Assembly (NCBI GenBank): GCA_014804445.1
Contig: JAAUZU010000008.1
Span: forward strand, 135,155-199,154
Length of the DNA: 64,000 nt
Source: Lachnospiraceae bacterium
GTDB taxonomy: Bacteria > Bacillota > Clostridia > Lachnospirales > Lachnospiraceae
Reading direction: 5' to 3'
A program made the translations under genes and the position numbers. Shown piece after piece: positions 20,807 to 54,106 of this stretch. The stretch's first letter is position 1. Each line of letters starts with the position of its first letter. Below the pieces are notes generated by a model that was not told the origin of the DNA, did not search any database, and worked only from the letters and a program-made list of their open reading frames with translations.

Positions 20807-20851
20807 GTTACAGAATTGTTAAGAGCCAAATACAGAAAGGTATGTGACAGG

Positions 20852-23800
20852 ATGAAGAAATTGTTTAACCACACGAAACGGGATTATAAAGCAGACAAAA
20901 ATCTCGAGTGGGATGATTTGGAATATACGGAAGAATTTGAAGATGAAGTCTTTGAGGGGGATGGGGACGAAGAATTCTACTACAGCGATGAGGAAGCCGG
21001 TGAGGAAGTCTATGATGATGCCGAGGGCGAATTTTACGAAGAAGATGTAGAAGAGCCGGAGTACTATGAGGATGAGTATTACGAAGAAGCGGCAGAGGAA
21101 GAGGAGTATTACGAGGCGGAATCGGAAGAGACTTACGATGAGGAGGCCGTAGACGAGGAAGTGTACTACGAGGCGGAATCGGAAGAGGCTTACGATGAGG
21201 AAGCAGTGGACGAGGAAGTCTACTATGAGGCGGAATCAGAAGAGGCAGATTACGAGGAGGCCGTAGACGGGGAAGTCTACTATGAAGCGGAATCAGACGG
21301 GGCGTTTTACGGCGAGGAAATTGTAGAGGAAGAAGTGTACTACGAGGCAGAGTCAGATGCAGAGGGGTATGATGAGGAAACCTACTATTATGAAGAGGAC
21401 TCTGCGGAAGTATATGGGGATGAAGAACCTGTAGACGAGTATTACGAAGCGGAGGACGGCGAATCTCTTTACGATGATTTTTATGAAGAGGATGAGGACG
21501 AAGAAGAGGAAGAGGAGCAGGAAAAGATTCTTCCATGGAGCGCCATGTCCGACAAGAACTTCTTTCAAAAAATGTGGTATTCCCTTGTGCATATGAGCAC
21601 AATGGATAAGGTAGTTACAACAACGGGGATTTTGGTGCTGGTGCTTGCACTGGTGACGGGGGCGGTCTATGTCAGCGCACGGGCGATTGACAAGGAAGTA
21701 GCTTCCTTTGATACGGTGGGCTCACAGCTTGATAATATTACTGTGATAGGGGAGCATGGACTGACTGCGGTTGCCGATGCGGAGATGGCAAGGATATCCG
21801 CTGCGAACGCGATTGCTGAGGAAGAGGAGAACAACAACGAATACGAGGAGAACGAATATACAAAAGAGGTAACGGTTTCCTTGAATATGACTTCCATAGA
21901 AAAGGATTTGAAGATAAAGTTTGTCAACAGCAAGACAAACCGTCTGGTGCCTAACGTTCCTTTTTCTGTCACGGTGACAACGCCTGACGGAAAAACGGAA
22001 ATCTGGTCTGACGACGATATGGACGGCATTATCTATAAGGCGGGAATTACGCCGGGCAGCTATTCTGTGTCTATAAACGCTTTGGAGGGCGACAAATACG
22101 CAGATTATAAGCTGCCGAATGATGCCCAGAAGGTAACGGTCAAAAAAGAGATAGCCTATGAAAAGGTAGAGGTTGCCGATGAAATAAAGAAAGAGTCGGA
22201 AATCGATGCAAAAAAGGAGGATACCAAGGAGAACGAAACGACTGTGGAATCCGTCCTGCAGGATACCGTGGGCTGGGTAGAATCTACCCAGTCAGTAGTG
22301 GGTGTTGTATATACAGCAGTGCCCAGAAGTCAGGTTCCCGACCCTTTGGCGACGGCAAAGAGCATGGTGTTTATGCGGACTTCGGAAGTTGAACCTTCGG
22401 AGCCTATCACTGAGCCGGAGACTACCCCCGAACCAACACCGACGCCTACCCCTACGCCTACTCCGGAAGTACCGGTAGTTACAGGGGTTACGCTGGATAA
22501 AACAGAGATGGCGTTGAAAGAGGGAGAAACAGGGAAGTTATCTGCAACGGTAACACCTGCAGAAGTAAAGGATGCAGTTATTACATTCACGTCATCAAAT
22601 GAGAACGTTGCAAAGGTTGGCGCTGATGGCACTGTTACGGCGGTAAAGGCCGGAGAAGCAACCGTTACGGTTACGGTAGATGGTAAAACAGCTACGTGCA
22701 AGGTGACTGTAACAGCTTCACAAAAGCCGGTCATTACCTTAGACCAGTCTGAATTGAAACTGGAAAAGGACAAAGAGGCAACGTTGAAGGTAACTGTCAC
22801 AGGCGCTGAAGAAGGTAAGCAGGCGGTTACATTTACCTCTTCCGACACAACTGTGGTGACGGTAGATAAGGATGGTAAGCTGAAAGCGCTGAAAGCAGGT
22901 GAAGCGACCATTACTGTCACGTTGGACGCAGACAAAGATGTAAAAGCAGAATGCAAGGTCACAGTCACAGAAGATACCCGCACCCTGACGCTCAGCGAAA
23001 CGGCACTTTCCATGGTGGTGGGTGTGAACAAGGATGTGAAAGCGACGATTGGCGGGGCTGCGATTTCCGGCACGATTACGGCGGAAAGTGATAATGCCGC
23101 GGTAGCGACAGTAACAGTGAGCAAGACAGAAAATGGTGTTGCTACGATTACCGTGACGCCGAAGGCGGCAGGAACTGCAAAGATAACAGTGGGTATAAAG
23201 GATGACGGAAAGACAGAGGCGGCTTTGACGCAGGTCTTGACGGTAACGGTCGGAAACGGCACCATAACGTTAAATAAGACAACCATAGGCGTGCTGGCGG
23301 GTGCTTCCGGCGAGCTTTCTGCCACGGTAGACAGCAGCAACGCTGACGCAAAGATTACTGTTACAAGCTCCAATGACAAGGTAGCGACGGCGACGGCCAC
23401 CGGCACGGTTGCAGGCGGAAAGACCACGATAAAAATTGTCGTGAATGGAGTGGCGGCAGGTACGGCGACGATTACGGTGAATCATCCGGATGGCGGAACT
23501 GCAACCTTTACAGTTACCGTCGGAAGCAAGGATACGAAGCTTGTCGGCTCCGATGGTAAGCAGCTTTACGTCTTAGTCAACGGAGAATATAAAGAAGCGC
23601 TCTATGCGGATTACTATAATACAGCCATCACTACCTTCTATGTGAAGACAGACGGTGTGACGAAATACACAGGCTGGCAGACGATTAACGGCAAGCTGTA
23701 CTACTATGACGCAGGCGGAAAGTATGTGACGGGTGAGCAGGTAATACAGGGTGCGAAGTATACCTTTGCCAGTGACGGCTCCCTTGTGGTCGGCAATGGT

Positions 23801-24391
23801 GCTTTCGGTATCGATGTATCCAAGTGGAATGGCACGATAGACTGGAACGCAGTGAAAAATTCCGGCGTGAATTATGTCATTATCCGCTGTGGTTACAGAG
23901 GTTCTTCGTCAGGTGCGCTGGTCGTAGACCCTAAGTTTGAAGCCAATATAAAGGGCGCTACTGCGGCAGGAATCAAAGTAGGTGTTTATTTCTTCTCGCA
24001 GGCAGTCAACAACAGCGAAGCGGTGGAGGAAGCTTCCATGGTGCTGGAGTTGATTAAGAATTACAAGATTTCCTATCCGGTATTCCTTGATGTGGAGGCA
24101 TCAGGAGGCAGGGCTGACAGTATTAGTGTTGCAACAAGAACAGATGTCATTAAAACCTTCTGTCAGACGATTCAGAACAATGGGTACACGGCGGGTGTTT
24201 ATGCGAATAAAAACTGGCTTACCACCAAGATTGACACAAGCAAGCTGAACCAGTACAAAATTTGGCTGGCACAGTATGCGTCGGCGCCGACCTATACGGG
24301 AAGGTACGATATGTGGCAGTACAAATCAACCGGAAAGGTAACCGGCATCAGCGGTGACGTTGACTTAAACTGGAGTTATCTGGGATATTGA
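20852..24391 (+). CDS. Membrane-anchored GH25 muramidase-like protein with acidic Tyr-rich N-terminus, BIG2-type Ig repeats and cell-wall-binding-like repeats
   Basis: D/E/Y-rich N-terminus, TM (VVTTTGILVLVLALVTGAVYV), Pro/Thr linker (PEPTPTPTPTPTP), repeated VTLDKTEMALKEGETGKLSATVTP-type modules, C-terminal GIDVSKWNGTIDW...FLDVEAS GH25 domain. Confidence 0.9.
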   Translation: MKKLFNHTKRDYKADKNLEWDDLEYTEEFEDEVFEGDGDEEFYYSDEEAGEEVYDDAEGEFYEEDVEEPEYYEDEYYEEAAEEEEYYEAESEETYDEEAVDEEVYYEAESEEAYDEEAVDEEVYYEAESEEADYEEAVDGEVYYEAESDGAFYGEEIVEEEVYYEAESDAEGYDEETYYYEEDSAEVYGDEEPVDEYYEAEDGESLYDDFYEEDEDEEEEEEQEKILPWSAMSDKNFFQKMWYSLVHMSTMDKVVTTTGILVLVLALVTGAVYVSARAIDKEVASFDTVGSQLDNITVIGEHGLTAVADAEMARISAANAIAEEEENNNEYEENEYTKEVTVSLNMTSIEKDLKIKFVNSKTNRLVPNVPFSVTVTTPDGKTEIWSDDDMDGIIYKAGITPGSYSVSINALEGDKYADYKLPNDAQKVTVKKEIAYEKVEVADEIKKESEIDAKKEDTKENETTVESVLQDTVGWVESTQSVVGVVYTAVPRSQVPDPLATAKSMVFMRTSEVEPSEPITEPETTPEPTPTPTPTPTPEVPVVTGVTLDKTEMALKEGETGKLSATVTPAEVKDAVITFTSSNENVAKVGADGTVTAVKAGEATVTVTVDGKTATCKVTVTASQKPVITLDQSELKLEKDKEATLKVTVTGAEEGKQAVTFTSSDTTVVTVDKDGKLKALKAGEATITVTLDADKDVKAECKVTVTEDTRTLTLSETALSMVVGVNKDVKATIGGAAISGTITAESDNAAVATVTVSKTENGVATITVTPKAAGTAKITVGIKDDGKTEAALTQVLTVTVGNGTITLNKTTIGVLAGASGELSATVDSSNADAKITVTSSNDKVATATATGTVAGGKTTIKIVVNGVAAGTATITVNHPDGGTATFTVTVGSKDTKLVGSDGKQLYVLVNGEYKEALYADYYNTAITTFYVKTDGVTKYTGWQTINGKLYYYDAGGKYVTGEQVIQGAKYTFASDGSLVVGNGAFGIDVSKWNGTIDWNAVKNSGVNYVIIRCGYRGSSSGALVVDPKFEANIKGATAAGIKVGVYFFSQAVNNSEAVEEASMVLELIKNYKISYPVFLDVEASGGRADSISVATRTDVIKTFCQTIQNNGYTAGVYANKNWLTTKIDTSKLNQYKIWLAQYASAPTYTGRYDMWQYKSTGKVTGISGDVDLNWSYLGY
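21090..21380 (+). repeat. Imperfect tandem coding repeat (~57-60 bp unit)
   Basis: Repeated VDEEVYYEAESEEAYDEEA-type units in the acidic N-terminus. Confidence 0.8.
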
Positions 24392-25607: not shown

Positions 25608-25751
25608 GGGACGCCGTCCTCGCCCCCATATTCCTATTCGAACGCGCTCTCGCTCGAATAAAAACGCAGTGGACACTAGGCTCGAAAGGACCTCGCCAAG
25701 TGCCAGCGTTTTTATACGGTTCTCATAGGAATATGGGGGAGAGGACGGCTG
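25608..25751 (+). repeat. Palindromic intergenic element, copy A
   Basis: Outer arms 25613-25637 / 25725-25749 (24/25 complementary); inner stem ataaaaacgc / gcgtttttat; shares core with copies B-F. Confidence 0.9.
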
Positions 25752-25973
25752 ATACCACAAGGAGGGAATGTTATGACGCGGGAAGAAATGAAATTATCGG
25801 TGGAACTCCTTACTGCGTTCACGATAATTGGCTGTATACGATTTCTGTATCTAACTCGTATAATGCAGTCCGCATGATAATTTGTGTGAAACCTGTTGCA
25901 ATAGATGAAATTTATAAAAAGTAGGAAGTTATAAATTATAAAAAGCTCGTGCAGACGGAAAAGTTTTTGCTAT

Positions 25974-26129
25974 TTTCAGCCGGCAGCGAACCCCTATGTC
26001 TCGGCAGACCGTATAAAAACGTTGGCGCTTGGCGAGGTCACTCACGAGCCTAGCGTCCACTACGTTTTTATTCGAGCGGGAGCGCGTCTGTAGAGACATA
26101 GGGGTTCGCTGCCGGTGTGACTCGCCGCA
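25974..26129 (-). repeat. Palindromic intergenic element, copy B (opposite orientation)
   Basis: Outer arms 25980-26002 / 26093-26115 (23/23 complementary); core matches copy A in reverse complement. Confidence 0.9.
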
Positions 26130-45355: not shown

Positions 45356-45501
45356 GTGAGTCACGCCGTCAGCGGAGCTACATGCCTGTTCAGACGCGCT
45401 CTCGCTCGGATAAAAACGCAGCGGTACTAGGCTCGAAAGAACCTCGCCAAGTGCCGGCGTTTTTATACGGTCTGCACAGGCATATAGCTCCGCCGCCGGC
45501 T
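45356..45501 (+). repeat. Palindromic intergenic element, copy C
   Basis: Outer arms 45372-45389 / 45476-45493 (17/18); core gcgctctcgctcggataaaaacgcagcggtactaggctcgaaagaacctcgccaagtgccggcgtttttat. Confidence 0.9.
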
Positions 45502-45597: not shown

Positions 45598-45732
45598 GGA
45601 CAGCGCCATATTCCCGAAGGAGCCCTTTAAGAAACGTCAGCGCTTAGCGAGGTTCTTTCGAGCTTAGCGTCTGCTACGTTTCTTGCAGAGCGAGAGCGCG
45701 GCGACTCGGGAATATGGCGCTGTTCAGGCGTC
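45598..45732 (-). repeat. Palindromic intergenic element, copy D (opposite orientation, variant stem)
   Basis: Outer arms 45598-45617 / 45706-45725 (19/20); inner stem aagaaacgt / acgtttctt. Confidence 0.88.
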
Positions 45733-49386: not shown

Positions 49387-49541
49387 GCGGCGATTCACGC
49401 CGGGGGAGGAGTTATATGCCTGTGCAGACGCGCTCTCGCTCGGATAAAAACGCAGCGGTACTAGGCTCGAAAAAACCTCGCCAAGTGCCGGCGTTTTTAT
49501 ACGGTCTGCACAGGCATATAACTCCTCTTCCGGCTGAAAAC
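49387..49541 (+). repeat. Palindromic intergenic element, copy E
   Basis: Outer arms 49400-49429 / 49504-49533 (28/30); core almost identical to copy C. Confidence 0.9.
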
Positions 49542-49728: not shown

Positions 49729-49869
49729 GCCTGTACGGCAGGCCATTCCCGAAGGAGCCCGTTAAGAAGCGTCGGCGCTTAGCGAGGTTCTTTCGAGCTT
49801 AGCGTCCGCTACGCTTCTTTCCGAGCGAGAGCGCGGCTCCTTGGGAATGGTCTGCCGTACAGGCGTCCC
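49729..49869 (-). repeat. Palindromic intergenic element, copy F (opposite orientation, variant stem)
   Basis: Outer arms 49729-49759 / 49835-49864 (one bulge, one mismatch); inner stem aagaagcgt / acgcttctt. Confidence 0.9.
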
Positions 49870-53472: not shown

Positions 53473-53925
53473 ATGCAAATGATAGTTATATTTATAGGAA
53501 CTGCTGCAGCGGTTTTTGCGGCGGATTTGGTGATAAAAAACAGAGTGGAAAAAAGCGGCAGTCTGCCCCGAGGCGTGTGGAAGGGGCGGATTGTCCTGCA
53601 GAAATATCACAACAGAGGCGCTATGCTGAATTTCGGTGAGAAAAGGCAGGGGCTGGTGACTGCGGCTTCTGTGATGCTGACGCTTTTTGTGCTTGCAGTA
53701 TTTATTTTGAGTCTCGGACAGCGGGGCAATAACCTGCTTCGAACGGGGCTGGCGCTGCTTTTGGGCGGAGCCTTCAACAATACATATGACAGGCTGAAGC
53801 GCAGATATGTGGTGGATTATATCAGTTTTCAGGCGAGATGGAAGCGGTTTGCAAATATTGTATTCAATTTATCGGATTTCTGCATTATGGCGGGAGCGAT
53901 GATAAGTTGTTTTGCGGCAAAATAA
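53473..53925 (+). CDS. lspA: Signal peptidase II-like protein
   Basis: HNRGAMLNF, GGAFNNTYDRLKRRYVVDYISF, FNLSDFCIM match SPII motifs in divergent form. Confidence 0.75.
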   Translation: MQMIVIFIGTAAAVFAADLVIKNRVEKSGSLPRGVWKGRIVLQKYHNRGAMLNFGEKRQGLVTAASVMLTLFVLAVFILSLGQRGNNLLRTGLALLLGGAFNNTYDRLKRRYVVDYISFQARWKRFANIVFNLSDFCIMAGAMISCFAAK

Positions 53926-53937
53926 AGAACAATAATA

Positions 53938-54075
53938 GGTGATTGCGAAATATCTTCTGCAAGTGACGGAAATGTTCAATATAGACAAAAACGGGCTCCG
54001 AAGCGTGGCAAGTCGCCCTTATTTTGTCTATATTGCCCATTTCCTGTGTTGCAAAGAGGAAGTTTCGCAATTATC
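53938..54075. repeat. Second, unrelated palindromic element
   Basis: Left ~53938-53990 (gattgcgaaa...ggaaatg..caatatagacaaaa) pairs imperfectly with right 54022-54075 (ttttgtctatattg..catttcc...tttcgcaattatc). Confidence 0.8.
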
Positions 54076-54106
54076 TAAAGAACAACAAGAAAGAGAGGTA
54101 CGAAAA

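Follow-up and report, generated by a model that had tools for sequence, protein, structure and literature searches.

Long hairpin repeats lie as head-to-head (+/−) pairs between genes of a Lachnospiraceae bacterium, and a preliminary description of the locus had likened them to REPINs. Their arrangement raises the question of whether they are REP doublets moved by RAYT, a Y1 transposase, or repeats of another kind. REPs are 20–40 bp long and carry an unpaired GTAG or CGTC tag at the foot of the hairpin, the GTAG type occurring with RAYT (PMC3116915, PMC3733652). They lie mostly as inverted doublets, single copies being regarded as relics (PMC3116915, PMC3733652), and heterodimers are common (PMC3733652).

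Experimental Procedures

The DNA was from Lachnospiraceae bacterium GCA_014804445.1, contig JAAUZU010000008.1; the window is the whole 64,000-nt stretch of this contig that was analyzed. The genome (3.58 Mb, 87% complete) was searched with profiles, and the stretches around the matches were then read. A covariance model was derived from elements A–F of the window. Its search of the genome returned 145 hits, of which 139 remained after antisense overlaps were removed, and because 150 of 535 first-look candidates were scored, copy counts are lower bounds (at least 139). Two sister genomes, G179 and G105, and G130, from a third species in the genus, served for comparison, and the window pairs were compared across the two sister species. 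The gene context of pairs came from a crude ORF caller, and the search for a mobilizing enzyme covered two families (Y1_Tnp and DDE_Tnp_1). These draft genomes were for the most part assembled from metagenomes, and N runs and contig ends fall inside hairpins.

Results

Structure and Subfamilies of the Elements

The six elements A–F were located where the preliminary description had placed them, forming three +/− pairs, and NCBIfam and Pfam bore out the flanking genes rfbB/rfbA, GT2 glycosyltransferase/glmS, and htrA/clpX. These elements, and a further hairpin of the window that was overlooked in the first reading, are as follows.

25613..25749, + strand: element A, alpha type, a three-way-junction hairpin with a variable outer arm of 31 bp
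25750..25979, no strand: A/B spacer, remains of a decayed 207-aa ORF, the copy of which in sister G179 is intact
25980..26115, − strand: element B, of alpha type, which pairs with A and whose G179 ortholog carries another tip
45368..45500, + strand: element C, alpha type, orthologous in G105 with its tip swapped as a block
45600..45727, − strand: element D, of beta type, with a 92-nt core that G105 lacks at the orthologous locus
49399..49534, + strand: element E, alpha type, compared with the orthologous loci of the sisters
49733..49862, − strand: element F, beta type, compared with the orthologous loci of the sisters
53924..53936, no strand: left copy of the delta target duplication, 13 bp, AAAGAACAATAAT
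53937..54076, + strand: delta hairpin with terminal repeats AGGTGATTGCGAAA...TTTCGCAATTATCT
54077..54089, no strand: right copy of the delta target duplication, 13 bp, AAAGAACAACAAG

Each of the elements A–F folded with a z score of −7 to −16 against its own shuffles. The fold is a three-way junction made up of an outer stem, an arm of ~30 bp, a small hairpin, and a long stem. The sequence of the outer arm varies between copies, yet the arm is nearly perfectly self-complementary; the small hairpin is fixed (GCGCTYTCGC), and the long stem carries an exchangeable tip. The junction is conserved across genera, with compensatory changes. At 139–205 nt, the units are far longer than the 20–40 nt of REPs, as had been described. 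A GTAG-like motif, variable between GTAG and GCAG, is present in many copies inside the stem beside the inner hairpin and not at the foot of the element. No Rfam family matched the elements at the gathering threshold, and weak matches to miRNA families were discarded as merely reflecting long hairpins. The 207-aa ORF whose remnant fills the A/B spacer (intact G179 copy at L128:3620-4243, − strand) had no Pfam match.

The window copies A–F fall into two classes, alpha with the stem ATAAAAACG and beta with the stem AAGAAACG, both of which have at their ends only the weaker stem TTTGCGGC...GCCGCAAA. Gamma copies are ~205 nt long, end in AGGTGATTGCGAAAC...GTTTCGCAATTACCT, and mostly lack a paired model match, and the 140-nt delta hairpin combines gamma-like ends with a different interior. 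The terminal repeat AGGTRATTGCGAAAC of gamma and delta was found at 120 sites, compared with 8 for a reversed control pattern. The delta copy of the window is intergenic and lies ahead of an ORF starting near 54100.

Several local variants were observed. The outer 5′ stretch TTTGCGGCAAGTSACG is often present as two or three short-period tandem copies (L120:4540-4620, and upstream of several alpha and beta copies). One copy (L178:2251-2406), which contains several Ns, forms a nearly perfect end-to-end palindrome, half an element joined to its mirror image, and is either real or an assembly artifact. In a Butyrivibrio MAG (L116:5830-6160), the conserved tip hairpin alone alternates with a CTCTCGCTTCGCTCGCC hairpin in a head-to-tail array of ~5 units. 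Elsewhere in the window, acidic in-frame repeats with a period of ~57 bp (21027-21517) lie inside a large ORF (20816-24391).

Orientation and Copy Number

The genome yielded at least 139 copies in the covariance-model search. Among them, the 29 neighbors less than 700 bp apart were all +/−, with none −/+ or on the same strand, where chance would give ~3.7 such neighbors in any orientation; their gaps ranged from 7 to 591 bp with a median of 145. The +/− pairing seen in the window therefore holds genome-wide. In the sister genomes, 25 of 26 neighbors in G179 and 12 of 12 in G105 were +/−, and neither genome had a −/+ neighbor; because many loci are orthologous, these counts are not independent trials. 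The neighbors in G130 were all same-strand (23 of 23) and look like tandem duplications, so the rule does not extend to the whole genus. Among 80 genomes sampled from the family (79 genera), 27 contained model matches, and some other genera also hold +/− neighbors. The orientation rule is thus strong in the species group of this bacterium and not absolute in the family.

Two stricter claims of the preliminary description did not survive the genome-wide count. Singletons, of which it had seen none, account for ~40% of the copies: no partner was detectable by the model for 81 of the 139 copies, and ~27 of those 81 have an inverted delta or another relic on their 3′ side. The pairs had also been placed always between co-oriented genes, whereas the crude ORF caller put 6 of 25 between divergent and 1 of 25 between convergent ORFs. 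With the same caller, the orientation of the elements relative to genes revealed no clear preference; most copies lie within a short distance of gene ends. Given the singletons and the tandem organization of G130, the orientation rule is no necessary consequence of insertion.

The pairs that could be classified comprised 13 alpha/beta heteropairs, 6 alpha-alpha pairs, and no beta-beta pair. A delta adjoining a gamma, alpha, or beta element was on its 3′ side in 30 of 30 cases, and a delta next to a gamma was inverted relative to it in 21 of 24; the loci were read centered on model matches, which biases the delta total and covers both flanks alike.

Target Duplications, Empty Sites, and Doublets

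Flanking direct repeats were found for 14 of 54 gamma copies at a score of ≥7, compared with 0.9 expected from shuffled flanks, and for 4 of 24 delta copies, compared with 0 expected. The target duplication of both is ~13 bp long. The site at C17:96733, which holds a single element flanked by a ~13-bp target duplication, is empty in both sisters, and C26:106313 corresponds to an empty site in G105. The G105 counterpart of C17:89566 does not count as an empty site, being the relic of a deletion; the elements at C26:111103 and C26:115386 are missing from G105 along with other sequence. What looked like an insertion in G179 (L120) was rejected, as the locus is more widely rearranged and has no clean site.

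The flanks of alpha and beta elements, taken singly and as pairs, contained no direct repeats above chance, and the sister comparison revealed no empty site for these elements, which occupy orthologous positions in the sisters. Because they lie at orthologous places without target duplication, alpha and beta are either older than gamma and delta or move by another route. Gamma and delta look like MITEs without a known parent; alpha and beta are their relatives, which by analogy may be mobile as well.

Gamma-delta doublets have spacers of 7–18 nt, most of which are unrelated; a few look like the duplicated target of one of the two elements, and several match the flanks of neither. At one gamma-delta locus, three similar 13-mers occupy flank, spacer, and flank, and this spacer recurs at two further loci. 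Movement of the doublet as a unit is thereby weakly hinted at for three gamma-delta doublets, and no support for it was found among the alpha/beta pairs of the window. Within these small numbers, the simplest reading of the gamma-delta doublets would be stepwise insertion at the 3′ side of a resident copy with occasional movement of a doublet. Alpha/beta spacers have almost no sequence in common beyond the element borders and delta copies.

Candidate Mobilizing Enzymes and Other Replicons

A Y1 transposase (TnpA-REP/IS200-IS605-like), the enzyme toward which the comparison with REPINs had pointed, was searched for as Y1_Tnp (PF01797), with no match in the 87%-complete genome and with positive controls. 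The genome has a single DDE_Tnp_1 ORF, which was dismissed as the mobilizer for want of matching AGGTRATTGCGAAAC-type ends; a neighboring ORF is IS110-like by eye. No transposase lay between distant AGGTRATTGCGAAAC ends at the listed sites. The one candidate autonomous transposon examined (C7:54644-57071, 2.4 kb) was rejected, its ORFs being peptide-chain-release-factor-like and phosphopentomutase-like by eye. There was no match in a plasmid collection queried with a gamma copy, in a phage collection queried with the A/B pair, or in a viral collection.

Base-pairing, Tip Exchange, and Partner Loss

In a strand that works as RNA, G·U pairs are expected to exceed A·C pairs. The counts of G·U and A·C were 67 and 55 in the paired arms, 42 and 60 in the inner stem, and 20 and 31 in other genera; a small positive control of 9 tRNAs gave 5 and 0. 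Because G·U shows no excess over A·C, nothing points to selection of the elements as RNA. Between species, 20 arm changes were compensated on both sides, where our own arithmetic from the one-sided rate predicts ~1, and tips changed as blocks between otherwise conserved orthologous elements (this genome versus G105 and G179). The compensated arms and the block-wise tips are both consistent with conversion at the DNA level, whether from one copy to another or inside a hairpin, with selection on single-stranded DNA structure as a possible alternative.

Partners have been lost at several loci, namely D in G105, the left element at C8:240k in this genome, and the − element at C18 in G105. Several losses consist of a hairpin core deleted between its arms, and some may be assembly faults, given that N runs interrupt hairpins in these draft, largely metagenome-derived assemblies.

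Discussion

The elements number well above 100 copies, gamma and delta insert as whole units that have matching ends and a ~13-bp target duplication, and resident copies adjoin almost only with their 3′ sides face to face. On balance, we favor the view that Lachnospiraceae chromosomes carry them as non-autonomous DNA hairpins of a MITE-like kind, which accumulate as 3′-facing inverted doublets. A transposition enzyme acting in trans would cut at the terminal stem and would prefer the flank past the 3′ end of a resident copy, where the newcomer would be inserted inverted, so that head-to-head doublets would arise stepwise; some doublets might afterward move as one unit. Conversion between copies and repair provoked by the hairpins would keep arms and tips palindromic and homogenized at the DNA level, and deletion between the arms would leave singletons and relics. 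The choice of a target beside the 3′ end is suggested by statistical evidence, and for the alpha/beta pairs of the window, enzyme cutting and inverted insertion at the 3′ side are proposed purely by analogy with gamma and delta. More speculatively, the elements might belong to an undescribed superfamily of mobile hairpins whose machinery takes its cue from the 3′ side of a resident and puts the next copy inverted beside it, while copies trade tips as cassettes.

Were the pair itself the moving unit, alpha and beta would be the left and right ends of a cassette resembling a transposon, with a gene formerly between them. The strictly inverted arrangement, in which 5′ ends point outward, the tendency toward alpha/beta pairs, the small ORFs in some spacers (NUDIX, DUF3781, lipoprotein-like, and the 207-aa ORF of G179), and the spacer common to three gamma-delta doublets would all suit such a cassette. 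Gamma, however, inserts singly and many loci hold one element; alpha/beta spacers are almost without common sequence, no duplication surrounds the pairs, and more widely spaced +/− couples have core genes, pheS for example, between them. We therefore rejected the idea of elements as ends around cargo, with its unrelated spacers and core genes inside distant couples, and regard movement as a pair as doubtful overall. Direct repeats are generally unstable, and hairpin deletions were seen, so the orientation rule could in principle be a survival filter in which recombination deletes tandem copies and inverted ones persist. Both inverted orders should then persist equally, yet −/+ neighbors numbered 0 of 29 in this genome and 0 in the sisters, and G130 retains many tandem copies, which makes such a filter very improbable.

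A three-way junction conserved between genera, compensatory changes included, and the location of most copies near gene ends would also be expected of cis- or trans-acting structured RNAs (processing signals, terminators, or the target of a regulator) that spread by duplication and were retained for an RNA function. The sense strand, by contrast, has no excess of G·U over A·C and no Rfam match, there is no clear orientation preference relative to genes, and single elements are polymorphic as insertions; we consider an RNA function unlikely. The comparison with REPINs stands as far as appearance goes: these, too, are high-copy, hairpin-forming palindromes scattered in intergenic DNA as inverted doublets with 5′ ends outward, heterodimers are frequent, and many copies have GTAG beside the inner hairpin. 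Membership does not follow, because Y1 transposase, unit size, terminal tag, and spacers all fail: no Y1_Tnp was found in the 87%-complete genome, the size is wrong, a terminal GTAG tag is absent, and the spacers are unrelated. Unlike REPs, the elements are three-way junctions, and the related gamma and delta have ~13-bp target duplications, which an IS200/IS605-type Y1 mechanism is not known to produce. That these are true REPINs is thus largely refuted and scarcely credible.

For gamma and delta, BOX elements and prokaryotic MITEs are nearer than REPINs. Pneumococcal BOX elements are modular folded repeats of intergenic DNA with terminal repeats and target duplications (PMC3049150). By description, the Lachnospiraceae elements are similarly modular, strongly folded, MITE-like, and dispersed between the genes of a Firmicute, but BOX joins boxA, boxB, and boxC in tandem within one element, whereas here swappable tips sit on a fixed three-way junction and the copies form inverted doublets. 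Prokaryotic MITEs (ERIC, Correia, and RUP) are short and non-coding, with terminal inverted repeats, target duplications, and empty sites (PMC10969869, PMC2229807). Our elements are likewise short, non-coding, and present in many copies, and gamma and delta have all three of those marks. They differ from typical MITEs in that no parent transposon was found by way of the two enzyme families or the listed distant ends, the duplication is ~13 bp, and the palindrome extends over nearly the full length; alpha and beta (A–F in the window) differ further in having neither target duplication nor empty site.

No description of these elements was found in the open-access literature, and they apparently constitute an undescribed, large hairpin-repeat family of gut Lachnospiraceae. 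REP-like and MITE-like repeats are best known from Proteobacteria and streptococci. The same general kind of repeat is now seen in abundant gut Clostridia, where its orientation rule is strong, its tips are modular, and its insertions are polymorphic between sister species. The hairpins are flagged as places where these genomes are frequently poorly assembled, and the question of why palindromes form inverted doublets becomes testable by ordinary strain comparison.
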